From: Desulfopila aestuarii DSM 18488
GTDB taxonomy: Bacteria > Desulfobacterota > Desulfobulbia > Desulfobulbales > Desulfocapsaceae
Direction: 5' to 3'
Length of the DNA: 49,507 nt
Assembly (NCBI GenBank): GCA_945863875.1
Contig: CAMBBS010000034.1
Location: 1-49,507 of the forward strand
Shown here piece by piece: positions 2,449 to 18,583 of this stretch (its first letter is position 1; each line of letters begins with the position of its first letter). Under the pieces are notes generated by a model. It was not told where the DNA came from and searched no databases. It saw nothing but the letters and a program-made list of their open reading frames with translations. A program made the position numbers and the translations under genes.

Positions 2449-4647
2449 ATGTTTGCTTTGACACGGATTCGCCATAAGCTCCTTTTTTACTATACCCTTC
2501 TTTACGCCCTTTCCCTCTTCGTTGGTTTTGCTACCATCTATGTCATACTCCGCGACTCCCTGGAAAAAAATATAGAAAGCGAACTGCAAAACACCACCAC
2601 AGCAATCTACAATCTGGTGCAGACCTCTGCCAACGTATCGATTAAAAATTACCTCCGGGCCGTGGCCGAAAAAAATGTCGAAATAATCGACCAAATTTAC
2701 CGGGAGAGCCTGAACGGGGCACAGACCGATGCAGAGGCCAGGGAGAAAGCGGCGACCGTGCTACTAAGCCAGACCATTGGCGAGTCCGGCTACATTTATT
2801 GTCTCAACAGTAAAGGAAGGGTTGTTGTCCATCCGCAACGTGCTCTGCTCGGCTCGGATGTTTCTAACTATCCTTTCGTGGGAGACGTGTTTGAACGAAA
2901 AAAGGGCTATCTCGAGTATGACTGGAAAAATCCCGATGAACATATCGCCAGACCAAAGGCATTGTATATGCTACATTTCGAACCCTGGGACTGGATCATT
3001 GCCGTCTCCTCCTATCGCGAAGAATTCAAGGATCTGGTAAACGTCGACGACTTCAAGCAGAGTGTCCTGGACCTCAAGTTCGGCAAAACAGGATATGCCT
3101 TTGTTGTCAATACGGAAGGGAAGGCAATCATTCATCCCAAACTCGAGGATGTCAATATTCTGTCGGTGGATGGCCAGTCAAACGAATATCTCGCCGAGAT
3201 CATCAAAAAGAAAAACGGCCAGATTACCTATCCCTGGCAAAATCCCGGCGAGCACAAGTCCAGGCAAAAGTTATGTCTTTTTAACTCGATAGAAGAGTAC
3301 GATTGGATTGTCGCGACAGCCAGTTATCTTGACGAATTTTACCAACCGCTTCGGACCATCGGCACACTGGTGCTGATTACTTTCCTATGCACCATGCTGC
3401 TGGTCCTGTCACTCTCTTATAAGATCAGCAACTCAATCACCAACCCGCTGCATGAGCTGATGGGTTACTTGGACAATGCCGGCAAGGGTGATTTCAGCCT
3501 GCGGATGGCGGTAACATCGAGCGATGAAATAGGCAAGCTCGCCGGGTTTTTCAACCGATTTATGGAGCAGCTCGGCCAGTACCACAGCGACCTGAAGCAA
3601 CAAATACAGGTGAGGCAAGAGACGGAAAACAGCCTCAGGCAAAGCGAACAGCGCTATCGCTCGGTGATGGCCTCCGCTGCCGATCCGATTATCACCTATG
3701 ACATGGCAGGCCGGGTGACCTATTTCAATCCAGCATTTCATCAGGTCTTCGGCTGGAGCCTCGCCGAGTGTCTCGGGCGGAAAATGGACCATTTCGTGCC
3801 CCAGGAAAACTGGCCAGAAACCAAGGAGATGATAGCTGCCATAAAAGGCGGCAGGGTTCTGTCGGCAACCGAGACGAAACGCTCCACCAAGTCAGGAGGT
3901 ATCCGCCATGTCAGCATCAGCGGCGGAGCTCTCAAGGATCATAACCAGCAGCTTTCCGGCAGTGTGGTTATTCTCCGCGATATAACCGAGACCAAAAAAT
4001 TGACCAAACAACTGATGGATATCGGCGATAACGTTCGTCAGACCATTGGACAGGATCTCCACGATGATCTTTGTCCTCATCTCATTGGTATTGGTGGGCT
4101 CGCCTCGGTGCTGCACGCGACCCTGAGGGAAAACAACAGCGGAAGTGCCGCCCTGGCGGAAAAAATCGTCAGCCTGATTGGTGATGCCGCGAATAAGGCC
4201 CGGGGGCTTTCGCAGGGCCTCTGCCCCGTGCATCTTGTCGCCTACGGCCTACATTCGGCGCTCAACCAGATTGCCGAGCACACCGAGATGACGGCGGGGA
4301 TCAGCTGCACCTTCAGCGGAGATGATTCCCTGAATATCACGGATAATACCCTTGCCACGCACCTCTACTATATCGTGCAGGAGGCGGTAAACAACGCAGT
4401 GAAACATTCCGGGGCCTCGGCCATCGACATTTCCCTTGGCGAGCGAGATGAATATCTTCACCTGTTGATCACCGACGATGGTCGTGGTATTGATGAACAA
4501 CAGAGCGGAAAAGGCATGGGCATACAGATCATGAAATACCGGGCGCTGGTCATCGGCGCCTTTCTCGAAGTCATCAGCTCTGAGACAAAAGGGACTACTG
4601 TTCATATATTTATGAAAAAGTCGGACATGATCCAACACCAAGAGTGA
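2449..4647 (+). CDS. Membrane sensor histidine kinase (Cache-HAMP-PAS-HisKA_3-HATPase)
   Basis: The 732-residue sensor has a first membrane segment near residues 13-33, a periplasmic part to about 300 and a second membrane segment near 303-325. The outer part carries two Cache-like repeats, each with a G-x-x-G-Y pattern (GESGYIYCLN, GKTGYAFVVN) followed by HP and a W-x-NP motif. HAMP follows, then a PAS domain at about 395-510. The HisKA_3 dimerisation helix DLHDDLCPHL puts the phosphorylated histidine at H538, and the C-terminus is a HATPase domain (DDGRGID, GKGMGIQIM). The architecture is that of a NarX/LuxR-type kinase that pairs with NarL-type regulators, and such a regulator starts 25 bases downstream. 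Cache domains usually bind small organic acids or amines, so a role in sensing the fatty-acid substrate is plausible but unproven. Confidence 0.9.
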   Translation: MFALTRIRHKLLFYYTLLYALSLFVGFATIYVILRDSLEKNIESELQNTTTAIYNLVQTSANVSIKNYLRAVAEKNVEIIDQIYRESLNGAQTDAEAREKAATVLLSQTIGESGYIYCLNSKGRVVVHPQRALLGSDVSNYPFVGDVFERKKGYLEYDWKNPDEHIARPKALYMLHFEPWDWIIAVSSYREEFKDLVNVDDFKQSVLDLKFGKTGYAFVVNTEGKAIIHPKLEDVNILSVDGQSNEYLAEIIKKKNGQITYPWQNPGEHKSRQKLCLFNSIEEYDWIVATASYLDEFYQPLRTIGTLVLITFLCTMLLVLSLSYKISNSITNPLHELMGYLDNAGKGDFSLRMAVTSSDEIGKLAGFFNRFMEQLGQYHSDLKQQIQVRQETENSLRQSEQRYRSVMASAADPIITYDMAGRVTYFNPAFHQVFGWSLAECLGRKMDHFVPQENWPETKEMIAAIKGGRVLSATETKRSTKSGGIRHVSISGGALKDHNQQLSGSVVILRDITETKKLTKQLMDIGDNVRQTIGQDLHDDLCPHLIGIGGLASVLHATLRENNSGSAALAEKIVSLIGDAANKARGLSQGLCPVHLVAYGLHSALNQIAEHTEMTAGISCTFSGDDSLNITDNTLATHLYYIVQEAVNNAVKHSGASAIDISLGERDEYLHLLITDDGRGIDEQQSGKGMGIQIMKYRALVIGAFLEVISSETKGTTVHIFMKKSDMIQHQE

Positions 4648-4672
4648 TAAGAAAAACCCTGGGGGAGAACCG

Positions 4673-5335
4673 ATGGTTCCACGAAAAAAATTCAAAGTGC
4701 TGATTATCGATGATCATCCCATTTTCTGCCTCGGCATGAGCGAACTGATCAACAAGGAGTCCGATCTCATGGTCTGCGGCGCCATCGAGTCGATGCGAAA
4801 GGCCTGCGCGGCTATAACCGAACTGACACCCGATCTGGTCATCATCGATATCTCCCTGAAGGATGGCAATGGCCTCGATCTTGTACAGGAGATCAAAAAA
4901 GAGCATGAGGGCCTACCGACCCTGGTTTTGTCCATGTATGACGAATCGCTCTATGCCGAGCGTGCGCTGCTCGCCGGGGCTTACGGCTATATCATGAAAC
5001 AGGAGGCGATACCCAAGGTCGTCGAGGCAATCCGCCATGTCTTGAAAGGCGAAATCTACGCCAGCAATAGCGTCAAGGAGAAGGTGTTCAAACGGCTGAT
5101 GAACCCGCATAGCGCGAACAGCAAATCCCCCCTCGATATCCTCACCAATCGCGAGCTCGAGGTCCTGCGGCTGATCGGCCAAGGCTACTCAACCAAGGAG
5201 ATTGCCGACCGGCTCCATCTCAGCATCAAAACCATCGGCACTTATCGTGAGAATCTGAAAGAAAAGCTGGAACTCAAACACTTTACCGGTCTGGTTAAAT
5301 TCGCAGTACATTGGTCTGACAAGATCCTGCTGTAA
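4673..5335 (+). CDS. NarL/FixJ-type response regulator
   Basis: The 220-residue protein has a receiver domain at about 6-122: acidic pair D13-D14, phospho-acceptor D59 in VIIDIS, and a lysine K108 in IMKQE. A LuxR-type helix-turn-helix follows at about 155-212 (LTNRELEVLRLIGQG, STKEIADRLHLSIKTI). It is the cognate partner of the upstream histidine kinase, 25 bases away on the same strand, with a GGGGGAG ribosome site. It would bind DNA after phosphorylation. The acyl-CoA synthetase gene begins 286 bases downstream, which suggests the beta-oxidation genes as targets; this is inference from position. Nothing unusual is seen in length or motifs. Confidence 0.92.
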   Translation: MVPRKKFKVLIIDDHPIFCLGMSELINKESDLMVCGAIESMRKACAAITELTPDLVIIDISLKDGNGLDLVQEIKKEHEGLPTLVLSMYDESLYAERALLAGAYGYIMKQEAIPKVVEAIRHVLKGEIYASNSVKEKVFKRLMNPHSANSKSPLDILTNRELEVLRLIGQGYSTKEIADRLHLSIKTIGTYRENLKEKLELKHFTGLVKFAVHWSDKILL

Positions 5336-5621: not shown

Positions 5622-7235
5622 ATGTGCAGGCCAGAAGTTAATCGAGATATACTCAGTCCGGTTTCATTTCTCAACCGCAGTGCCGGTGTCTATCCGGACA
5701 AGATCGCCGTGGTCTATGGTGACAGACGTTTTACCTATCGTCAGTTTCAGAGCAGGGTCCACCAGTTGGCCAATGCCCTGCTTGCCAGAGGGATAGAGCG
5801 GGGTGACAAGGTGGTCTTCGTCTGTCCCAATACTCCTCCCATGCTCGAAGCCCATTTTGCCATTCCGATGATCGGCGCCGTCCTGGTCTGCGTCAACACC
5901 CAGCTCTCCAGCCGGGAATACCGGTATATTATCGATCATTCAGATGCGAAAGCAGTTTTTGTCGACAATGAGTTCGCCGCCCAACTCCAGGCGATCGCTG
6001 AGGAATTAGAGAAGGTTTCGTTTTTTATAAATATCTGTGACGGTGGCTGCACACTGCTGTTGAAGGGAGCCGAATATGAGTCTTTTCTGGCAGGTGCCCC
6101 GGCGACGACGCCCGAGATAGCCGAGACCTGGGATGAAAACAGTGTTATCGCCATCAACTACACTTCGGGTACCACCGGCAGACCAAAGGGGGTGATGTAC
6201 AGCCATCGAGCCACCTGTCTGCAGACTCTGGGTGAAATCATTGAAGCAGCCCTCCGACCCAACTCCATCTATCTCTGGACCCTGCCGATGTTTCATTGCA
6301 ACGGTTGGAGTTTTCCCTGGGCGGTAACGGCTGTCGGGGCAACCCATGTATGCCTGCGGCACTGTATGCCAAAAGAGATTTTTCATCTCATCGAGAGAGA
6401 AAACGTATCGCATCTCTGCGCATCGCCCAATGTACTGTTGATGATGATCTGTTTTCCAGGGGCGACCGCGGTGAAATTGCACCGCCCCCTGCAGGTGCTC
6501 ACCGCTGGAGCCTCTCCTTCCCCGGTTATCATTAAGGGCATGGAAGATATCGGTGCCGATGTTACCCATGTCTACGGCCTCACTGAACTGCATGGACCAT
6601 ATAGCATCTGTGCCTGGCAAGCGCCCTGGGTTGAGCTCGATCCGGAAAGCGTTTCCAGAATGAAGGCACGCCAGGGGGTAGCTTCTATTACCAGTCTGCA
6701 TCTGGCGGTTATCGACCCTGAGACCATGCAGCCGGTACCGCATGACGGCCGGACCATGGGGGAGGTGGTGATGCGCGGCCACAATGTCATGCTTGGTTAC
6801 TATAAAGATAAGGAGGCAACCGATTTTGCCTTTCGCGATGGCTGGTTCCACAGCGGCGACCTGGGGGTTTTGCACCCCGACGGATATCTCCAGATAACCG
6901 ACCGGGCCGGCGATGTCATCATCAGAGGTGGAGACAAGATTTCCTCGATCGAAATCGAGGAAATAATTTATCAGCACCCGGATGTCCTTGAGGTGGCGGT
7001 TGTATCAACCCCGGACCCGGTCTGGGGTGAAGTCCCGAAGGCCTTTGTCGTACCCAAACGGGGCAGGACACCGACGGCTGAAGAGATTATCGAGTTCTGC
7101 CGCAGCCACCACGCCCAGTTTAAGGCCCCGAAAACCGTAGAATTCGGTCAATTGCCCAAAACCGCGACCGGTAAAACCATCAAGGCCAAGCTGCGCAATC
7201 GCGAATGGCTCGGCCTAGAACGTAAAGTCAGTTGA
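5622..7235 (+). CDS. AMP-forming acyl-CoA synthetase
   Basis: The 537-residue enzyme activates a free fatty acid to acyl-CoA with ATP. The AMP-binding loop TSGTTGRPKGV lies near residues 178-190, the second signature VYGLTE near 322, the hinge block GWFHSGDLGVL and DRAGDVIIRGGDKISSIEIE near 407-445, and the C-terminal catalytic lysine sits in PKTATGKT at about 518. Length and motifs are normal for the short/medium-chain acyl-CoA synthetase group. Start ATG is preceded by AAGGAG at a good distance. It opens a run of beta-oxidation genes on the same strand and so probably supplies their substrate. A broken second copy of this enzyme type lies at 14060-14490. The chain length of the substrate cannot be read from the sequence. 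Confidence 0.9.
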   Translation: MCRPEVNRDILSPVSFLNRSAGVYPDKIAVVYGDRRFTYRQFQSRVHQLANALLARGIERGDKVVFVCPNTPPMLEAHFAIPMIGAVLVCVNTQLSSREYRYIIDHSDAKAVFVDNEFAAQLQAIAEELEKVSFFINICDGGCTLLLKGAEYESFLAGAPATTPEIAETWDENSVIAINYTSGTTGRPKGVMYSHRATCLQTLGEIIEAALRPNSIYLWTLPMFHCNGWSFPWAVTAVGATHVCLRHCMPKEIFHLIERENVSHLCASPNVLLMMICFPGATAVKLHRPLQVLTAGASPSPVIIKGMEDIGADVTHVYGLTELHGPYSICAWQAPWVELDPESVSRMKARQGVASITSLHLAVIDPETMQPVPHDGRTMGEVVMRGHNVMLGYYKDKEATDFAFRDGWFHSGDLGVLHPDGYLQITDRAGDVIIRGGDKISSIEIEEIIYQHPDVLEVAVVSTPDPVWGEVPKAFVVPKRGRTPTAEEIIEFCRSHHAQFKAPKTVEFGQLPKTATGKTIKAKLRNREWLGLERKVS

Positions 7236-7288: not shown

Positions 7289-8584
7289 ATGAATAAGGTT
7301 GTCATAGTCAGTGGATGCAGAACGGCGGTGGGGGCATTTGGCGGCGCCCTGAAAGATGTTCCGGTGGTTGACCTGGGGGCGACGGTTCTCCGGCAGACTC
7401 TACACAAGGTCGGGCTGCGGCCGGTCCGTGGAAAAAACTTTCAAAAGAATGTCCCAGGAAAACTGGCCGGACAGGCAGAGCTGGAACTGGAGAGGAAGTA
7501 TGCAATGTGGCCCGGTGATGCCAGAGAGCTGGCCATCGACGAAGTGATCATGGGCAACGTCCTGCAGGCCGGCCAGGGGCAAAACCCGGCCCGCCAGGCG
7601 TTGATCCGGGCCGGTCTCTGCAAAGAGACTCCGGCATTTACTCTCAACAAGGTCTGCGGCTCCGGCCTCAAGGCGATTGCCATTGGCGCCCAGTCGATCA
7701 TGACCGGCCAGGCCGAAGTGATCCTCGCCGGCGGCCAGGAAAATATGAGCCAGGTGCCCATGGCACTGATGCAAGGACGCTGGGGCTACCGCATGGAAGT
7801 GACCGGCATAGGCGAGATCCACGACCTGATGGTCTACGACGCGTTGTACGAGATTTTTTACGGCTACCACATGGGCGTTACCGCTGAAAACATCGCCAAT
7901 ATGTACCATATCAGTCGCGCGGATCAGGACCGTCTTGCCTGTATGAGCCACAGCCGGGCTATCGAAGCGATGGAAAAAGGCTATCTTGCCGAAGAGATCG
8001 TGCCGATTAAGGTGACTTCACGCCGGGAAGAGATAACAGTCGACCGGGACGAGCGGCCCATGGTCACCAGTCTGGAAAAACTTGCCCGACTTCGTCCTGT
8101 CTTTGCCAAAGACGGAACGGTTACCGCCGGCAACGCTTCCGGCATCAACGACGGGGCGGCAGCGGTGCTGCTGATGAGTGAGGAAAAGGCCCGGCAGCTT
8201 GATCTCAAACCGCTGCTCACCATCGAGAGTTTTGCCTCGGGCGGCCTTGACCCGGCTTACATGGGTCTTGGGCCGGTACCGGCTATCCGCCAGGCTCTGC
8301 ACCGGGCTAAAATGACTCTCGCTGATATCGATTTGATCGAACTGAATGAAGCCTTTGCCTCCCAGGCCATCGGCTGCATGCTGGAGCTTGGCATCGAGAT
8401 TGAGAAACCAAATAAACAGGGCAGCGCCATCTCCATGGGCCATCCCGTCGGCTGTACCGGCGCGCGACAGATGATCACCACCATCCACCAGATGCGGCGC
8501 GGCAACTTCGGCACCGGACTGATCAGCATGTGCATCGGCGGCGGTATGGGCATGGCCATGGTGGTCACCAACAACAGCAAATAA
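7289..8584 (+). CDS. Acetyl-CoA acetyltransferase (thiolase)
   Basis: The 431-residue thiolase carries the nucleophilic cysteine C123 in NKVCGSGLKA and the C-terminal pair of signatures GHPVGCTGAR and CIGGGMGMAM with the second catalytic cysteine. It is longer than the usual 390-395 residues because about 35 extra residues (roughly 45-80, PVRGKNF to ARELA) sit before DEVIMGNVLQAG. As I recall, some deltaproteobacterial thiolases carry a similar insertion, so it is probably a subfamily trait. A GGAG ribosome site precedes the start. The gene lies 53 bases after the synthetase and 14 bases before the hydroxyacyl-CoA dehydrogenase start, so the three are likely one operon. Role: thiolytic cleavage of acetoacetyl-CoA or 3-ketoacyl-CoA, or the reverse. 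Confidence 0.92.
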   Translation: MNKVVIVSGCRTAVGAFGGALKDVPVVDLGATVLRQTLHKVGLRPVRGKNFQKNVPGKLAGQAELELERKYAMWPGDARELAIDEVIMGNVLQAGQGQNPARQALIRAGLCKETPAFTLNKVCGSGLKAIAIGAQSIMTGQAEVILAGGQENMSQVPMALMQGRWGYRMEVTGIGEIHDLMVYDALYEIFYGYHMGVTAENIANMYHISRADQDRLACMSHSRAIEAMEKGYLAEEIVPIKVTSRREEITVDRDERPMVTSLEKLARLRPVFAKDGTVTAGNASGINDGAAAVLLMSEEKARQLDLKPLLTIESFASGGLDPAYMGLGPVPAIRQALHRAKMTLADIDLIELNEAFASQAIGCMLELGIEIEKPNKQGSAISMGHPVGCTGARQMITTIHQMRRGNFGTGLISMCIGGGMGMAMVVTNNSK

Positions 8585-8598
8585 CAATGGAGAGCAGC

Positions 8599-9453
8599 AT
8601 GCAAGAAAAAACAACAACCTTTGGCGTCATCGGCGCCGGTCAAATGGGTGCCGGCATTGCCCAAGTTGCCGCGGCAAGCGGTATGAATGTCATTCTTCAC
8701 GATATTTCCTCGAACTTTGTTGAACGGGGCCTGGCCACCATTGCCAAAAACCTGCAGCGCAGTGTCGACAAGGGAAAGCTGGCAGAAGAGGCAAAACAGG
8801 CCATCATAAGGCGGATCACTCCCAGCACGGATATCGTCGACATGGGGTCCGCCGATTTTGTCGTCGAGGCCGCCTCCGAGAACGAGGAGATCAAATTCAA
8901 AATTTTCGCCCAGCTTGACGAGATCTGCCCATCCCATACGATCCTCTCGTCGAACACCTCCTCCATTCCGATCGGCCGTATCGCCTCGCGAGCAAAAAGA
9001 CCGGACAAGGTGATCGGTCTGCATTTTATGAATCCGGTGCCGGTAATGAAACTGGTCGAGGTGATCCGCGCCCTGCCAACCTCCGAGGAGACCTTTCAGA
9101 TCACTGTGGCGCTCGCCGAACAGATGGGTAAAACCCCGGCGGTGGCCGCCGATTTTCCTGGATTCATCGCCAATCGGATTCTTCTGCCGATGATCAATGA
9201 GGCGATCTTCTGCCTCTACCAGAGCGTCGGTGACTGTGACGCTATCGATACGGTAATGAAACTGGGCATGAACCATCCCATGGGGCCCCTGGCCCTGGCC
9301 GATCTTATTGGCCTGGATACCTGCCTGGCTATTTTAAACACCCTGCATCAGGGCCTTGGCGATCCGAAATACCGCCCCTGTCCCCTTCTCCGCCAGTATG
9401 TCGAAGCGGGCTGGCTGGGCCGAAAAACCGGCAGGGGATTTTACAGCTACTAA
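8599..9453 (+). CDS. hbd: 3-hydroxybutyryl-CoA dehydrogenase
   Basis: The 284-residue cytosolic dehydrogenase has an N-terminal NAD-binding loop GVIGAGQMGAGIAQ at about 8-21, the family signature HFMNPVPVMKLVEV at about 139-152, and a C-terminal helical domain ending GWLGRKTGRGFYSY. Length matches the family (282-286). The start at 8599 was chosen over in-frame upstream codons because GGAG at 8589-8592 gives a good spacing and the protein then begins seven residues before the Rossmann strand. It interconverts 3-hydroxyacyl-CoA and 3-ketoacyl-CoA between the thiolase encoded just upstream and a crotonase. No crotonase (enoyl-CoA hydratase) gene is present in the window, so that step must be encoded elsewhere. 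Confidence 0.93.
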   Translation: MQEKTTTFGVIGAGQMGAGIAQVAAASGMNVILHDISSNFVERGLATIAKNLQRSVDKGKLAEEAKQAIIRRITPSTDIVDMGSADFVVEAASENEEIKFKIFAQLDEICPSHTILSSNTSSIPIGRIASRAKRPDKVIGLHFMNPVPVMKLVEVIRALPTSEETFQITVALAEQMGKTPAVAADFPGFIANRILLPMINEAIFCLYQSVGDCDAIDTVMKLGMNHPMGPLALADLIGLDTCLAILNTLHQGLGDPKYRPCPLLRQYVEAGWLGRKTGRGFYSY

Positions 9454-9658: not shown

Positions 9659-10804
9659 ATGAACTTCGAACTGACAGAAGAGCAGAATCTCATTCGCGAA
9701 ATGGTCCGAGGCTTTGCCGAGGCCGAGGTTGCGCCGTCGGCCACCCAGCGTGATGAGGATGAACATTTTGACCGTGACCTGATGTTCGCAAGGCTTGCCG
9801 ATCTCGGCCTGACCGGTATCGTTTTTCCCGAGGAATACGGCGGCGCCGGCGCTGACTACCTGAGCTATGCAATCGCCGTCGAAGAGTTGTCGAGGGTCTG
9901 TGCCTCGACCGGCGTCACCCTCTCCGCCCATCTTTCCCTGGGCTCCAACCCAATCTATCTCTTTGGCACCGAGCGGCAGAAAAAACAGTTTCTCACCCCG
10001 CTGGCCCAGGGCGAGGCAATGGGCGCCTTCGGCCTTACCGAACCCTCAGCCGGTTCCGATGCCGGCGGGACCAGGACCTTTGCGGTACGGGACGGCAATG
10101 ACTGGATCGTCAACGGCAGCAAAATCTTTATCACCAACGCCGGGGAGGCGGAAATTTACGTAATTTTCGCCAGGACGGACAAGGCAGCGGAAAAACATCA
10201 CGGTATCAGCGCCTTTATTGTCGAGAAAGGTACCCCCGGATTCACCTTCGGCAAAAAAGAAAAGAAGATGGGCATCCGCTCCTCTCCGACCATGGAGCTA
10301 GTCTTCGAGAATTGCCGCATACCGCATGAAAACATGCTGGGTGAGGAGGGCAAAGGTTTCAAAGTGGCCATGAAAACCCTGGATGGGGGTCGAATCGGCA
10401 TCGCCTCCCAGGCCTTAGGGATCGCCCAGGGTGCACTCGACGCAACCACGACGTATGTCAAAGAACGGCAGCAGTTCAACAAGCCGTTGAACGCCTTCCA
10501 GGGCGTACAGTTCCAACTGGCGGATATGGCCACCCAGGTCGAGGCGGCCCGGCTGCTCGTCTATAATGCTGCCTATCGGGCCAGTGCCGGACTTTCCTAC
10601 TCACAGGAGTCGGCCATGGCGAAACTGTTTGCCAGCGAGACGGCGATGCGGGTGACCACCCAGGCGGTCCAGCTGCACGGCGGCTACGGTTATACCCGGG
10701 AATTCCCGGTGGAGAGAATGATGCGCGATGCCAAGATCACCGAGATCTACGAAGGTACCAGCGAGATCCAGCGTATTGTCATCGGTGCGGCGCTGACCCG
10801 GTAG
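9659..10804 (+). CDS. bcd: Short-chain acyl-CoA dehydrogenase (butyryl-CoA type)
   Basis: The 381-residue FAD enzyme shows the two classic acyl-CoA dehydrogenase signatures, [15 protein letters not shown] near residues 121-135 and [20 protein letters not shown] near 337-356. The catalytic glutamate is E365 in [10 protein letters not shown], the position used by short- and medium-chain enzymes. Start ATG follows TTGGAG. It oxidises acyl-CoA to enoyl-CoA and hands electrons to the ETF encoded by etfBA 1.5 kb downstream. A 205-base gap separates it from the hydroxyacyl-CoA dehydrogenase gene, and a strong terminator follows, so it closes the first transcription block. Chain-length preference is inferred from context. 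Confidence 0.93.
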
Positions 10805-10957: not shown

Positions 10958-12307
10958 ATGAAGACAGCGATGGAATTTATCCGTGAAATATACTGGAATA
11001 TCGGCCATGGACCCGGAACACTGGTGCCGATGCATCTGTTCGCCGCCCTGGCCCTCGTCGTTCTTGTCTTTGGATTTGTCAGGCGCCTGAAAATATATCA
11101 GCCATTAGCCCGGTGGGGGGAGATGATGCGCACCATGCTGCTGCAAACCAAGGTCCTGAGGGTAAGAGGGCCGGAACTGGCCCACGCCATGTTCTTCTCG
11201 GGTTTTTTCGTGCTCTTTCTCGGCACCGGACTGATAGTCATCCAAGCCGATTTCACCGACCTGTCCTTCGACTATGTTTTTCTCAAGGGCGCCGTTTACG
11301 AGCCTTTCAGCATGAGCCTCGATCTCGCCGGGATGTTCGCAATCATCATGCTTTTAGGCCTGCTTGTCCGGCGCTGGGCGGCACGACCCGAGGGGCTGGA
11401 GACGAAAGTGGACGATGCCATCATGCATTGGCTGCTGCTGGCCATTCTTCTCACCGGTTTCGTGGTCGAAGGTGCGCGGATGACGGTCACCGAGCTGGGT
11501 ACCCCGCTTGCTCAGTGGTCTCCTGTCGGCCTGGTTATCGCCCGGGGATTTTCAGGCACGAACCCGGAGCTGCTTCTTGCCCTGCAGAGAGGATTATGGT
11601 GGTTTCGTCTGGCCCTGGCAATGCTGTTTATCAGCCTGATCCCGCTCTCCAAATTTCGCCATATTCTGACCACCAGCGCCAACTATTTTTTTGCTGACAG
11701 GGGGCCGGTAGGCCAACTCATTTCTCTCGACCTGGAAAACGAGGAGACAGAAAGGTCCGGTGCGGCCAAAAAAACCGATCTTAGCTGGAAGGATCTGTTC
11801 GATGCCGGCGCCAGCACCACCTGCCCGCATTGCTTCAACACCCTCAGCAAAGACTACCGCGGCCTCGGCCTCGACTGTCAAGTCCAGTCCCATCCGGAGT
11901 TTCTCGCCGAACTGATTACCCAGGGCAGGCTTGCCTTAGGTGGGCAGCTGTTTGCTTGTACCTACCACGATTCCTTCTATCTCGGGCGCCATAACGGCAT
12001 CTACGACCCGCCGCGTGAGCTCATCAAGGCGGCGGGTGGAAAGATTGTCGAGATGACGAGAAGCCGAGATCAGGCATTCTGCTGCAGTGCCGGCGGCGGG
12101 CGGATTCTTGCTAAAGAAAAACCCGGCACGAGGATCAATATCAAACGGGTGGAAATGGCAGTGGCAACCGGGACCAACCAGCTGCTCTCCAACTGCCCCT
12201 TCTGCCTGGCCATGTGCGCGAAGACGGCGTCAAGGGTGCGAATGTCGAAGAGAGCATGCGGCCACGTGATATCGCCGAAGTGCTGGCGGAACGACTCCAT
12301 TAAATAA
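10958..12307 (+). pseudogene. Membrane Fe-S oxidoreductase of the ETF:quinone type, internally deleted and frameshifted
   Basis: The N-terminal 260 residues form a five-helix membrane domain like the cytochrome-b/NarI-type module of Fe-S oxidoreductases that link ETF to quinone. In full-length relatives this is followed by a 4Fe-4S ferredoxin pair and then two CCG (heterodisulfide-reductase-like) domains. Here WKDLFDAGAS runs straight into TTCPHCFNTLSKDY at about 11810-11835, so the ferredoxin cysteines and the first CCG half are absent without breaking frame. Near the end, after NCPFCLAMC at about 12211-12217, the frame shifts: the expected tail (EDGVKGANVEES, RPRDIAEVLAERLH) is read in another frame ending at 12303. 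The gene sits 24 bases before etfB. It is likely non-functional, unless the consensus sequence itself is wrong. Confidence 0.8.
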
Positions 12308-12330: not shown

Positions 12331-13101
12331 ATGAAACTTCTTGTATGCATAAAACAGGTTCCGGACATGGAATCAAAATTCAAGGTCGGTGCCGAAGGGC
12401 TCTGGTATGACCGCCACGATCTCGCCTGGCTGATGAACGAGTATGATGAATACGGCGTCGAGCAGGCTGTTCAGCTCAAGGAACAGACCGGGGCCGATCT
12501 GACCGTGCTCTCTATCGGGCCGGAACAGGTGAAAGAGACCATAAAAAAGGCCTTGGCGATGGGCTGTGACCGCGGTGTCCATATCGTCGACGACCAGGCC
12601 CACCTGAAAGATCCCTTTGAAATCGCCTCGATGATCGCCGAATTCGCCGGGGATAAAGGCTTTGACTTGATTTTCACCGGCATGCAATCCCAGGACCGCG
12701 GCAGCGCGCAGGTTGGAGTCATGGTTGCCGAGCTGCTGACCATCGCCGCAGTGACGACAGTCGTCGATTTCGCTTTCGTCGACGGCCAGGTTACCGTCAA
12801 ACGCGAACTTGAGGGCGGCGTCAAGGCAAAGGTTGCCAGCAAACTGCCGGTGCTGATTACCTGTCAATTGGGACTGAACGCCCCGCGCTATCCGACTCTA
12901 CCGAATATCATGAAGGCAAAAAAGAAAGAAATGCTCAGTCTACCCGCAACCGACCTACGCAAGGCTGCGGCCTTGCAGGAAACAATGAAAATCGAGTTTC
13001 CGGCAAAAAGGAGCGGGGGCCTGTTTCTCGAAGGCGAGGTGGCAAGCATTGCCGACCGCCTAATCAGGATACTTAAAGAAAAAACCACCGTGCTGGCGTA
13101 G
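12331..13101 (+). CDS. etfB: Electron transfer flavoprotein beta subunit
   Basis: The 256-residue protein begins MKLLVCIKQVPD, the standard ETF-beta start, and carries LIFTGMQSQDRGSAQVG at about 110-126 and the family signature VKRELEGGVKAKVASKLPVL at about 153-172. Length is normal. Ribosome site GAGGGAG precedes the ATG. With EtfA, encoded 33 bases downstream, it forms the soluble FAD/AMP heterodimer that accepts electrons from acyl-CoA dehydrogenase. Its usual membrane partner gene lies immediately upstream but is damaged, so the destination of electrons in this organism is uncertain. Nothing suggests that etfB itself is broken. Confidence 0.95.
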   Translation: MKLLVCIKQVPDMESKFKVGAEGLWYDRHDLAWLMNEYDEYGVEQAVQLKEQTGADLTVLSIGPEQVKETIKKALAMGCDRGVHIVDDQAHLKDPFEIASMIAEFAGDKGFDLIFTGMQSQDRGSAQVGVMVAELLTIAAVTTVVDFAFVDGQVTVKRELEGGVKAKVASKLPVLITCQLGLNAPRYPTLPNIMKAKKKEMLSLPATDLRKAAALQETMKIEFPAKRSGGLFLEGEVASIADRLIRILKEKTTVLA

Positions 13102-13134: not shown

Positions 13135-14055
13135 ATGAAGATGTTATTGGTTGCGGAATACAGACAGGGAGAGTTACTGGAGAGCTATACCGAGCTGCTG
13201 GCCTTTGCAGGAATCATGGGCGCGGAAAGTGCGATGTTCCTCACGGCCGGCACGGCTGGAGAGCTGCCAAAATTTTCCGGCAGGCTCTATCTGGCCGAGG
13301 TTGCCGAATTTGGAGAATACAATCCGGATGTCCATAAACAACTGCTCCTTGAGGTGGTGGAGAAGGAACATCCGGAGATGATCGTCTTCTCGCACAGCTC
13401 CTACGGCTGGGATCTTGCCCCGCGTCTTGCCGTCAGCCTCAAGGCGGGGCAAATCTCCGAGGTGGTTGCGCTGCAGGATGGCGCCCTGGTTGCGCCGGTC
13501 TGTAACGGCAAGCTGCGCCGGACCATGAAAAGTCGTGGCCGCATAACGGTTGTCACCCTCCAGGCCGGGGCCTTTGGTCTTGCCGATGCCGCCGTTGGTG
13601 TGCCGACCGTTATCCCGGTCACAGGTAACGCCAAGGGCAATATTGACCTTCAGGGCTATGAAATGGCGGAACATGGCGGAGTCGACTTGAGCAAGGCCGA
13701 GATCATCGTCAGCGCCGGACGCGGGGTGGGAAAACCGGAAAACATCGCTCTGGTCGCAGGACTGGCCAAGGCCCTGGGCGGCGAATATGGAGCCAGTCGG
13801 CCGGTGGTTGATTCGCTCTGGGTGGAACACAACCGCCAGGTCGGTACTACCGGCCTGACCGTCTCCCCGAAACTCTATGTCGCCTGCGGCATTTCCGGGG
13901 CGGTGCAGCACCTCGCCGGGATGAAAAAATCCGAGTTCGTGGTGGCCATCAATACCGACAAAGATGCCCCGATCGGCGACATGGCCGACGTCTTTGCGGT
14001 GGCGGACCTCAAACAGCTCCTGCCGCTACTGATCGAAAAGCTGCAGGCGCTGTAA
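13135..14055 (+). CDS. etfA: Electron transfer flavoprotein alpha subunit
   Basis: The 306-residue protein shows the ETF-alpha FAD-binding C-terminus: RPVVDSLWVEHNRQVGTTG, then SPKLYVACGISGAVQHLAGM, then AINTDKDAPIGDMADVFAVAD. The start ATG follows AAGGAG. It pairs with EtfB. The N-terminal half is the usual variable domain. Two features argue for a straightforward dehydrogenase-linked ETF: normal length and no fused ferredoxin. It is the last intact gene of the beta-oxidation block; minus-strand relics begin within a few bases of its stop codon. Confidence 0.95.
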   Translation: MKMLLVAEYRQGELLESYTELLAFAGIMGAESAMFLTAGTAGELPKFSGRLYLAEVAEFGEYNPDVHKQLLLEVVEKEHPEMIVFSHSSYGWDLAPRLAVSLKAGQISEVVALQDGALVAPVCNGKLRRTMKSRGRITVVTLQAGAFGLADAAVGVPTVIPVTGNAKGNIDLQGYEMAEHGGVDLSKAEIIVSAGRGVGKPENIALVAGLAKALGGEYGASRPVVDSLWVEHNRQVGTTGLTVSPKLYVACGISGAVQHLAGMKKSEFVVAINTDKDAPIGDMADVFAVADLKQLLPLLIEKLQAL

Positions 14056-14059
14056 AAAA

Positions 14060-14490
14060 AATCACCTCAGGTGCGGTTTTTGGTAGTTTACAAAAGACAA
14101 CCTCCTTGGGGGCCTTAAACCGGGCGAGATTCGCCTTACAGAATTCGATGATTTCCTCGGCTGTCGAACTCGTTCATGGTTTAGGTGTAGCGAAGGCCCT
14201 GGCGACTTCCCCCCATTTGCCATCGGACGAAGAGACGACGGCCACTTCCTGCACCATGGAATGACGGTAAATGACGTTTTCCACCTCAATTGACGAGATG
14301 TTTTCGCCCCCATGGTCTTGCCGTCCCGCGGCACGGGTTCCAGAGTGGCCATATCCAGCACATCCATATACAGGGCGGTGACCTAGGCAACCCCCTGACG
14401 TGATTTTATCAGGATAGACTGCGCATAACCTGGTGTGTTGAGCAAATCGAGAACTGCCGAAGAAAACCCGACATCTGCTGCATAAAGCAG
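14060..14490 (-). pseudogene. Decayed second copy of an acyl-CoA synthetase, C-terminal part
   Basis: On the minus strand, pieces in different frames line up in order with the C-terminal third of the intact acyl-CoA synthetase at 5622-7235: SSAVLDLLNTPG, SRQGV, DMATLEPVPRDGKTMG, GGENISSIEVENVIYRH plus EVAVVSSSDGKWGEVARAF, and AEEIIEFCKANLARFKAPK followed by CKLPKTAPE. Large stretches between the pieces are missing and at least two frame changes occur. The end of the enzyme, including the catalytic lysine region, is lost where the fragment meets etfA. It is a related but distinct sequence, not a copy of the upstream gene. No product is expected. Confidence 0.75.
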
Positions 14491-14826
14491 ACAGCCGATG
14501 GTCGTTTAAATCCCGGCGCCGAATTGACCCACATCCAGGCCGGCGATCATCCAAAGGACGAGGTCGAGAAGCAGAACTATCAAGATTAAGGGAACAGGAC
14601 TTTTCAGATAGGCTGGGGTGACGGCGGTGAGGAAGGCACTAAAAAACGAAAAAGGGGCCTTAGGTGATGAGCCTAACCGGTGAAATAAAGCAGGGAACGG
14701 GACGAGCGTATCAACCCATTTCGACAACGCCGGGGTTCATGGCTGAATTGAACGGGAATCGCCTTCTTGCTTCAGGACATCGCAGACTTCGGGGCTTTCG
14801 ACAAAAGTCGCCTTGCCCTGGTCTTT
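14491..14826. other. Decayed stretch between two relics, membrane-like fragment
   Basis: A minus-strand frame (about 14506-14727) encodes one strongly hydrophobic helix, SPVPLILIVLLLDLVLWMIA, and could be a scrap of a transporter. I do not recognise the family, and there is no ribosome site or conserved start. The rest shows nothing that reads as a gene on either strand. Confidence 0.3.
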
Positions 14827-16005
14827 TTATGGGTTGCCCTCGGCCAGGCCATATTCCTGCACCTTACGATACAGGGTCGCCCGGAAAATACCTCAACACT
14901 TGGCCATCTTGACCATATTCCTTTTGCACGTACTCAGGGTTGTGTCAATCATCTCCTGCTCCATCTGCTGCAGGGTGCCGATTTTTCCTTTCATCAGGCT
15001 GGGGGCTTTACGCTCTATGGCGATATGGGCCGCCTGCAGTTTCTTGTTATCACAGAGAGGCAGCCCGCGCTGGATGGTGTTTTCCAATTCCCGCACATTC
15101 CCCGGCCAGCCGTAACTGACCAGCTTATCCAGGGCTCCGGCAGTGAGCGGAGTGCCGGGGCAGTACCGTTTGATGAAATGGAGAGCTGGGGCTTCAATAT
15201 CTGCCACGCCTCTTTCCCGAAGAGGCGGCAGAGTGATTTCGATGATGTTCAACCGATAAAAAAGATCTTTGCGTTGGTCCTGGTACCCTTGCGGCCGCCG
15301 ATTCGCTCGACTTCTCCGGACTGCAATACCCTCAGGAGTTTGACCTGCATGTCATGCGGCATATCGCCGATCTCATCGAGGACAATTGTCCCGCCATCGG
15401 CCAGTTCAAATTTACCCGGTCGGCCAGTTTTCGAGGCGCCGGTGAATGCTCCGTCGACATAGCCGAAAAGCTTACACCCCAATTATTCGCCAGGAATGGC
15501 GCCGCAGTTCATCGGTACGGACGCCTGATTCCGCCGCTTACCGCCGTTGTGGATGGCCTGGGCCATGGCTTTTTTATAGGCTTCCCTGTTTTCCGAAAAC
15601 AGGCGCGGCGGCACTGGAAAAACCGTGGGCGTGCAGACAATAATGATCCTGATCATTGAGCTGGATGGAGAATTGTCTTTTCAGGCAGATGCTTATCGCG
15701 GAAGTACCGACGTCTTTTTCCGTCCAGCGGTATCCGGGCGAGCAGTTTCTTTCGCCAAAGACGACCTTTATCGCCTCACCGTCGGCAAGGAGCAGTATAT
15801 AGCCATCACTACTGGCATAGGCGACCATGAAGTCTTCAGGTGAGAGCATCTCGTAAAATTCTTCAATGTGGGCGATCACCACATCGAGCAGGGCTTTTTT
15901 TCTCTCCCTCTTGTCCTCCATTTCGATGGGGGACGCCTTGGCCTGATTCTCATTACGTTCTTCGCGGCAAATACCATATTTCCGGAAACGGCTTAGAAAA
16001 TCAAT
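14827..16005 (-). pseudogene. Decayed sigma-54-dependent transcriptional activator (GAF-like, AAA+, Fis HTH)
   Basis: Minus-strand pieces run in the order of an AcoR-like activator. First comes an N-terminal sensor (RKYGICREERNENQAK, then EDFMVAYASSDGYILLLADG, then the RWTEKDVGTSAI motif). AAA+ fragments follow (PMNCGAIPGE, then the GAFTGA loop in [20 protein letters not shown], then [19 protein letters not shown] and the RIGGRKG sensor). Next is [15 protein letters not shown], and last a Fis-type end ([11 protein letters not shown], stop, [21 protein letters not shown]). The Walker A region is missing, several stops and frame changes intervene (near 15495, 15575, 15245 and 14893), and an R-finger stretch is gone. 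It would have been the natural regulator of the adjacent fatty-acid genes, but is now dead. Confidence 0.85.
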
Positions 16006-16234: not shown

Positions 16235-18583
16235 ATGAATACAAACAGATACCCACTTGCCCCCATATATGATGCCGAAGCAGACGTCAGTCTCTTTCTT
16301 GATGCCATAACGGCCCGCGGCCTCCAGCCCTTTGCCGGAGAAGATACCAGCGTCGGCATGGAATACGAGCTGCAGGTGGCCGTTGAGGGTGATCATCAGG
16401 ATGTCGACCTGGCGGCAACCATCCGCAATTCCAACTATTTTAAAAATATCACAAAGCGTACCACGCGCGGCGATTTACCACCCGCCTGCCTCGATTCGCT
16501 GAAAGGTTTCCTCTACAGCAACGATACGGGTGTGTGGGAAAACAGCTGGGTTCGCTTCCCTGAATATCGCTTGACCCCGTGGACCCGAAAACTGCTTGCC
16601 CGGGATTTTCTGGCCGACAAAAGCATCCTCCATCCCCGACAGCGAAGCGATGTACAGAGATTTCGCTGCATGCACAAGGGAGAGACCCACCTGCGGCTGC
16701 CGATCAGTTACCTGCTTAAGCTTTCTCTGGCTAATGTCATAAGTGTCGACGATTCTCTTTCGCCGGTCCTCTTTAAGACCGGTAAAAGTTTAATGGACAA
16801 CTATATCAGCGACAATACCTCGCCGGAGGTCCTCAGCTTCACTATTCCCACGGCGGCACAGGGCAAAATTGGCGATCTTGCCGCAGCAGAAACGGCCAGA
16901 ACCCTGCTTTTCAGCCAACTGCTCATCCAATATGCCAACAAAAGTTTCGGCCTCGAGGCGTCTGGGCAGAAATGCCTGCTCTACTGCGCACCCCATGCAC
17001 CATTGCGGCAAAAACAGCTCAACGAAGTGGTGCCGGACGGCTTCTATCGCCATCTGTTTATGAGCCCCTGCCTGTCAGGTTGGGATAAAGGTGAAGAAAA
17101 GCATCGCTACATGGAGATCTGTCACAAAACCCTCTCCCGCAGCCAGTTGAACACCATCGGCAAGCTAAAGGATGCCGGCATCATCACCAACAACTTAGTC
17201 GTTCTGCCGAATACCTCGAACACCTGCTTGGCCAACAACGGCACCCATGTCTCCCTTGGCAGCCGGCTGCTGACCTCGCTGGCCACTGATCGGGAATCGA
17301 TGTTTACCCCCGGGGTGGAAAAATATTACGGCGATCTGGTCATCAAGATCGTCGAACACTTCCTGCCGCTGTTCGTCAACACCTACAGCGCCGCCCCCTA
17401 CCGCCTTGATTTTGCCGACTTTCATCCGGAAAAGGTACTTGGTTTCTTACCCCATGAACTCGATTACACGCACCTGCGCATGATCTGGCGAAGGTGGAAG
17501 AAAAAAGCCGATATCAGCTTTCTTGGCCGGACTATTACCCCCTTTGGCCCGCGCTGGCTCGACCGAACTCTCGCCGACCTGCTTGGTCTGAAAGGCGACC
17601 TGGTGCCGGACTTCCGTCTCATCGACTATCTGGTCACCCTGCTGTCCACTGAGATCTGTCCCGGATTGAATGGAACACCGGGCAATCACGAACGTCTAAA
17701 GGCCGAACTTTCCGAGATGGGCATTTTTGATCCGCGAATGTCCATCTACCTTCTTTACCGGCAGCGTCTCTTCGCCTCTTCCGGCTACGCCGGATTCGAG
17801 GGACGGAGTTACTCTCTTTTCCACAGTCTGGGTGAAGATATGGCGGAAGCGGTGGGCCTGCAGAATCTGGTGACCGCTCTGGCCTGTCGATATATCCAGG
17901 AAGGCCGGGTCCACCATCATGATATCCCGGACCAGCCGTCTATTGAAAGCGAACGGCGGCAGATTTTCTTTGCCGGCGCCGTCGGCATCCCGACTTTTTA
18001 TGTGCGCGCCGAAACCGGCAACAGACTGCTGCGCAAGATTCTCACCCATGTGCAGACCCAGCGCAACAGCCTGCGATACAAAGGATATGTCCGCGTAAAA
18101 ATAGACGATTACAACCTTGCCCTGCTGCACATACTCGAATCCGATGGGGCGGCGCTCATCGAACAGCTGGGGCTTGCACCGCAGATGCAGTCCCTGCGCA
18201 GACGCCTGACCGACAGCACGGCTTCGACCTACGCCAAGATCATGACCGCCGTCCAAGGAGAACTGCCGCGACGACGCACGCCGATGAAAGTTTCCGCCGG
18301 CGAGTTCAATGCGGCCACAGAACGCTATTACCGCACCGGGCTGAAACAAAAGCATCTCAGCGAATCCATTGCGGTTTTTATTGATGACTGCAAGCGCCTG
18401 GAGCGCCTTGAAGACCCGCACTTCAAACAGGTCATGGCCGCAATAGGCCAGGACATCACCGCTGCCGATTTTATAGCAGCACATCAGGAAACACTGATCC
18501 GGGAGACCGCCGGGCCGGAAATCCTGCTGCACATGCTGCGCCTTAACCTGGCCATTATCAACCACGAACGCAACTCCAACTAA
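16235..18583 (+). CDS. Large uncharacterised protein, first gene of a lipid-type operon
   Basis: I do not recognise this 782-residue family. The protein looks soluble: no signal peptide and no membrane helix. Near residues 41-50 a GMEYELQV motif resembles the substrate/ATP-site start of glutamate-cysteine-ligase-like enzymes. Other notable blocks are THLRLPISYLLKLSLANV (near 155-172), SDNTSPEVLSF (near 191), and NTSNTCLANNGTHVSLGSR (near 325-345). These look like conserved catalytic patches, but assigning a reaction would be a guess. The stop is 15 bases before a phosphatidylserine-decarboxylase-like gene, so the two are co-transcribed and probably act in one pathway. The start at 16235 has only a weak GGGGA upstream, inside competing hairpins (16202-16233). 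Codon use and GC look like the neighbours. Confidence 0.8.
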   Translation: MNTNRYPLAPIYDAEADVSLFLDAITARGLQPFAGEDTSVGMEYELQVAVEGDHQDVDLAATIRNSNYFKNITKRTTRGDLPPACLDSLKGFLYSNDTGVWENSWVRFPEYRLTPWTRKLLARDFLADKSILHPRQRSDVQRFRCMHKGETHLRLPISYLLKLSLANVISVDDSLSPVLFKTGKSLMDNYISDNTSPEVLSFTIPTAAQGKIGDLAAAETARTLLFSQLLIQYANKSFGLEASGQKCLLYCAPHAPLRQKQLNEVVPDGFYRHLFMSPCLSGWDKGEEKHRYMEICHKTLSRSQLNTIGKLKDAGIITNNLVVLPNTSNTCLANNGTHVSLGSRLLTSLATDRESMFTPGVEKYYGDLVIKIVEHFLPLFVNTYSAAPYRLDFADFHPEKVLGFLPHELDYTHLRMIWRRWKKKADISFLGRTITPFGPRWLDRTLADLLGLKGDLVPDFRLIDYLVTLLSTEICPGLNGTPGNHERLKAELSEMGIFDPRMSIYLLYRQRLFASSGYAGFEGRSYSLFHSLGEDMAEAVGLQNLVTALACRYIQEGRVHHHDIPDQPSIESERRQIFFAGAVGIPTFYVRAETGNRLLRKILTHVQTQRNSLRYKGYVRVKIDDYNLALLHILESDGAALIEQLGLAPQMQSLRRRLTDSTASTYAKIMTAVQGELPRRRTPMKVSAGEFNAATERYYRTGLKQKHLSESIAVFIDDCKRLERLEDPHFKQVMAAIGQDITAADFIAAHQETLIRETAGPEILLHMLRLNLAIINHERNSN

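Follow-up and report, generated by a model that had tools for sequence, protein, structure and literature searches.

The stretch of DNA analysed here (the window, 49,507 nucleotides of a Desulfopila aestuarii contig) carries a beta-oxidation operon in which an intact etfBA pair follows a membrane oxidoreductase gene of reduced length. Does the operon still encode a membrane exit for its ETF electrons, and if it does not, what has become of the gene? The gene occupies 10958–12307 on the + strand as a single ORF of 449 codons, and Pfam and the tree place it with the EMO/EtfD-type ETF:menaquinone oxidoreductases. Very probably it is the operon's own EMO gene in decay, a pseudogene, for which an EMO set on another contig of the genome, C2, provides cover.

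The initial annotation had described an ORF in which DAGAS joins TTCPHCFNT directly and in frame, and this is how the sequence reads. Pfam finds in the 449-aa product a Nitrate_red_gam domain at residues 31–245 and one CCG stretch at residues 335–419, and nothing else; in the orthologue from G003 the same search detects a pair of CCG stretches along with several models of the 4Fe-4S dicluster type. By Pfam and alignments, what is left of the b-haem membrane domain (Nitrate_red_gam) lies at 11048–11692 (+ strand) and what remains of the second CCG domain at 11960–12214 (+). Gaps were located by aligning the DNA of the window with that of G003, G033 and G009. An in-frame loss of 30 bp relative to the orthologues has its junction at 11096/11097 (+), and a second in-frame loss has its junction at 11814/11815 (+), a placement uncertain by a few bases. 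The second loss measures 621 bp, the length of the stretch in G003, and not the roughly 800–1000 bases expected before. The loss of the ferredoxin domain, proposed at the outset, stands as a description of part of the damage: both [4Fe-4S] cubane sites fall within the 621-bp gap, as does most of the first CCG domain, and the loss near 11096 had been missed. The tetranucleotide CACC is found at both ends of the 621-bp stretch in G003 and G033, but not in G009; such a pair of short repeats would be compatible with a deletion between them.

The third lesion is a frameshift, placed by alignments and frame translation at 12205–12217 (+), a zone without a long homopolymer. Beyond it the C-terminal tail of the family can be read at 12217–12303 (+) in a frame other than that of the ORF, which bears out the earlier statement that the last codons lie in another frame. 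Since the tail is still legible, the frameshift is probably the latest step, or else an error.

A profile of 33 full-length relatives (A1, window excluded) matches M. smegmatis EtfD (PDB 9ojn) with an E-value of 1.1e-117. The AlphaFold model of the G003 EMO (mean pLDDT 82) aligns with 9ojn over 620 residues with a Z score of 30.6 and an rmsd of 3.8. By profile match and predicted structure, the full-length family is EtfD/EMO. M. smegmatis EtfD (PMC13083937) and the full-length family share the arrangement of a membrane part, a 4Fe-4S part and two CCG parts, in that order. The window copy has none of the eight cubane cysteines and has lost the larger part of the first CCG domain. Its product retains the b-haem membrane domain of the family, though with changes at the positions of His 210 and His 217; the two cubane clusters are gone, and of the two CCG domains a single stretch is left. 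Its membership is one of descent, for the gene is orthologous to full-length EMO genes and shares its operon order with G003. In the tree it groups with nine orthologues (10 rows) with support of 100/99. Judged by sequence, its closest orthologue is the G003 copy, from the same genus and with the same operon order.

The ligands of M. smegmatis EtfD were matched to the family by hand counting on the profile alignment and then read out in the window; structural alignment with 9ojn yields no residue pairs. For the haem histidine of the last helix the profile alignment was used, from which the phmmer alignment differs at that point. Both haem ligand equivalents (His78 and His241 of M. smegmatis EtfD) are kept, as H76 and H235. 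Two of the four ligands of the linear cluster D1 remain, as do five of the six of the noncubane cluster D2, in which the equivalent of Cys637 is F340. None of the eight ligands of cubanes D3 and D4 is kept: seven of the cysteines are deleted, and one is aligned to Ser 286 or, depending on gap placement, deleted too. The electron path proposed for EtfD in the passages of PMC13083937 runs D1-D2-D3-D4-haem-menaquinone. With the cubane ligands of D3 and D4 gone, this path would be cut in the middle in the window product.

Cluster D1 itself may differ in the family. The family has a cysteine where M. smegmatis EtfD has Thr539, as in Hdr according to passages of PMC13083937, and D1 may accordingly be a noncubane [4Fe-4S] cluster there and not a linear [3Fe-4S] one. 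At the Thr539 place, C466 of the G003 EMO (locus L049) and its column in profile A1 are an invariant Cys.

Conserved columns come from aligning the window EMO with 34 further copies (two of an initial 36 were dropped as identical rows), the genome's own C2 paralogue among them. The window EMO keeps 144 of the 268 columns conserved at at least 95%; 103 are deleted, and another 21 carry substitutions, of which 11 fall no later than codon 418 and 10 after it. In a membrane helix, H210Q and H217R replace histidines present in 34/34 other copies. C340F in the second CCG domain affects a cysteine found in 31/31, and W81S a tryptophan found in 33/33. S286 is aligned to an invariant Cys (34/34) and sits at the gap edge, where the Cys may equally be deleted. 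The density of substitutions at conserved columns before the frameshift is 11/~155 in the window, compared with 20/270 in the full-length relative L045 and 3/269 in the median copy. On these alignments it is the kind, not the number, of the substitutions that falls outside the range of the family.

H217 corresponds to His223 of M. smegmatis EtfD, for which the passages of PMC13083937 on the structure name no ligand role. The EMO of Syntrophus aciditrophicus is described in parts of PMC8805022 as a membrane haem/FeS enzyme of an anaerobe that passes electrons from ETF to methylmenaquinone and has two b haems. It is likened here to the window EMO by role and gene context. In the window copy, by contrast, two membrane histidines that are otherwise invariant are missing. 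By analogy with this two-haem EMO, the lost invariant histidine at the H217 position may serve a second haem.

The gene has also evolved faster than its sister. With the frameshifted tail left out, its end branch measures 0.34, against 0.098 for the G003 sister (about 3.5 times), although the fork that joins the two has support of 93/64 and its bootstrap is not fully settled. Relative-rate tests of the window against G003, again without the tail, give 49 v 21 changes with G009 as outgroup (p = 8e-4), 50 v 16 with G017 (3e-5), 44 v 22 with G033 (7e-3) and 36 v 13 with G012 (1e-3), the four tests not being independent of one another. With the genome's own C2 paralogue as outgroup, the fifth one used, the difference was not significant (36 v 23, p = 0.09). 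For this gene, comparison of the window with G003 gives a dN/dS of 0.22, against 0.04–0.12 for eight neighbours; as these values include the tail and rest on a high dS (0.68–1.07), no weight is placed on them. The neighbours are mostly even in rate. Exceptions are the acyl-CoA synthetase (39 v 17, G033), the thiolase (30 v 16, G033) and etfB (20 v 9, G017), each of which is uneven with the outgroup named but even with its second outgroup.

These neighbours lie on the + strand on both sides of the gene. Intact etfB (12331–13101) deviates at 3 of 116 conserved columns and intact etfA (13135–14055) at 0 of 125; the acyl-CoA dehydrogenase (9659–10804) deviates at 0 of 256. By their sequences, the window etfBA and acyl-CoA dehydrogenase look constrained. 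Further upstream are a 3-hydroxyacyl-CoA dehydrogenase-like gene (8593–9453), a thiolase-like gene (7289–8584) and a gene for an AMP-binding acyl-CoA synthetase type (5622–7235), with 3/155, 8/254 and 8/291 deviations, respectively; the medians of 8, 7 and 5 relatives are 4, 6 and 14. On these counts the three are close to or below the medians of their relatives. The names of the acyl-CoA dehydrogenase, 3-hydroxyacyl-CoA dehydrogenase-like and thiolase-like genes come from sequence reading. A Cache/PAS histidine kinase and a response regulator with a GerE domain, recognised by Pfam at 2449–5335 (+), precede them in the same order as in G003.

Downstream of etfA lies a zone of decay. On the minus strand, 14062–15921 holds a fragment of the C-terminus of an AMP-binding enzyme and frame-broken pieces like a sigma-54-type activator, one of which matches AAA_lid_14; BLASTN finds no counterpart of this zone in the fetched G003 stretch L049. 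Positions 432–552 and about 14828–14947 of the window are 82% identical over 121 bp, so that the left end of the window may contain a relative of this activator. An ORF of 782 aa at 16235–18583 has no Pfam match at 0.01 and is followed by phosphatidylserine decarboxylase-like and Lgt-like genes.

Whether relatives carry a comparable short form was examined in 93 genomes, the organism's own included. At a cut-off of E 1e-40, 48 of them had a match. Besides that of the window there are 61 N-terminal matches by hand row count, one of them the own C2 paralogue. An open frame of at least 661 codons is present in 56 of the 61; of the five shorter copies, four run off their contig, and the fifth, in G084, was judged from its coordinates, 201 bases from the contig start. 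The short form is absent from the other family copies inspected (61 N-terminal matches at E 1e-40, G084 by coordinates), which speaks against a conserved short form in the family. The lesions of the window gene have no counterpart in its orthologues.

The initial annotation had suggested a search of the genome for a full-length paralogue next to another etfBA, and such a paralogue exists. On contig G000:C2 an intact EMO, an ORF of 661 aa, lies between an acyl-CoA dehydrogenase and etfBA. All 23 ligand-type positions compared are intact in it. It is 59 and 65% identical to the window copy over the two parts they share, and its acyl-CoA dehydrogenase is 83% identical to that of the window. The two EMO genes have the same flanking genes, an acyl-CoA dehydrogenase and etfBA, and differ in that the C2 copy has intact ligands and belongs to another part of the tree. 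No other strong, full-length paralogue was found in this draft assembly (93 contigs, 98.5% complete), which may still lack a further copy; among 25 CCG matches, the other CCG proteins match the query weakly, in its CCG part. An ETF-QO of the FixC type was rejected as the backup, for Fer4_ETF_QO has no match in G000 and was positive in 3 of 14 control genomes. In view of the intact C2 set, the idea that the pathway as a whole has lost its link to the membrane was rejected; the earlier suggestion that the beta-oxidation block is uncoupled from the membrane is hence not supported. The other early proposal, that an oxidoreductase elsewhere does the work, gains support from the intact C2 EMO, which the window ETF would presumably use.

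A course of decay consistent with these observations can be proposed. A 621-bp deletion, possibly between CACC repeats, would have removed the cubane clusters together with the larger part of the first CCG domain. In the absence of D3 and D4 the CCG clusters would have no electron connection to the haem, and ETF electrons could not reach menaquinone through the product. With selection relaxed, the 30-bp loss, the ligand substitutions and, probably late, the frameshift would then have accumulated, in an order that we infer. The acyl-CoA dehydrogenase-EMO-etfBA set on C2 would supply an intact EMO, so that the loss could be tolerated, and the window ETF, still constrained, most likely docks on the C2 EMO.

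Could the contig be wrong at one or more of the lesions, and the gene intact in the cell? The assembly is a draft in 93 contigs, and with the out-of-frame tail so well conserved, the frameshift, taken by itself, might be either an error or a very recent event. An assembly or sequencing artefact at that single site is conceivable. It would not account for H210Q, H217R, C340F and W81S, changes at invariant sites away from the gaps, or for the faster rate; such changes are rare in etfB and absent from etfA and the acyl-CoA dehydrogenase, and the frameshift zone offers no long homopolymer. Because the changes at invariant sites and the longer branch accompany the gaps, an assembly error is unlikely for the whole, and an intact gene in the cell is accordingly given a low probability.

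A reading in which the remnant has been repurposed, as a short membrane haem protein or as a translated spacer that keeps the expression of etfBA coupled, draws on the open frame, on the retention of H76 and H235, and on the two sizeable losses, each with a length divisible by three (a chance of about 1 in 9). The frame has stayed open over 449 codons, yet about 1.2 stop gains are expected for 28 excess missense changes, so that missing stops are unsurprising and the open frame counts weakly against decay. Invariant residues of the membrane part and a CCG cysteine have been lost, the last ~30 codons are out of frame, and the family search found no short form among relatives. This makes a new function for the remnant scarcely credible. 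Hardly more can be said for a combined version, in which the remnant is kept as a short haem-binding membrane protein or spacer and the ETF now works with the other EMO, the locus being one half of a reciprocal loss (EMO here, etfB in G005 and G009); we regard it as very improbable. The reading as a pseudogene covered by the C2 set is retained.

The setting of this loss can be seen in the relatives. Of the 10 rows of the clade, seven have etfBA behind EMO (window, G003, G012, G017:C22, G089:C191, G086 and G085) and three do not (G033, G009 and G005). Frame-broken remains of etfB lie right after an intact EMO in G005 (L052, ~11500–11790) and G009 (L051, ~11567–11870). Those of G005 were found by BLAST (39% over 67 residues and 59% over 27), and those of G009 were recognised by eye in a three-frame translation; BLAST found no etfB remains in G033, whose EMO protein is identical to that of a Desulfoprunum MAG (order Desulfobulbales). 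By hand tally, EMO-type etfB genes outnumber close EMO genes by one in G001, G003, G004, G006, G010, G014, G015 and G028, where an etfB of at least 60% identity and near full length was counted as EMO-type; the drafts are incomplete, and distant EMO-like genes may serve some of these. G011 and G022 also have an excess of etfB, in copies cut by contig ends, and G005 has one etfB fewer. On this rough tally, ETF and EMO come and go separately in the family. The intact etfBA next to the gene had been taken to make the loss striking, an impression weakened by eight relatives with an extra etfB and two with the opposite loss.

The loss is probably an ordinary gene loss covered by a spare, of an enzyme already known. 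On this reading the operon has lost its membrane exit for beta-oxidation electrons while the adjacent soluble ETF stays constrained. Together with the opposite loss in two relatives, this suggests that ETF and the membrane oxidoreductase are exchangeable between paralogous sets. For annotation it follows that an ETF operon may not carry its own working oxidoreductase.
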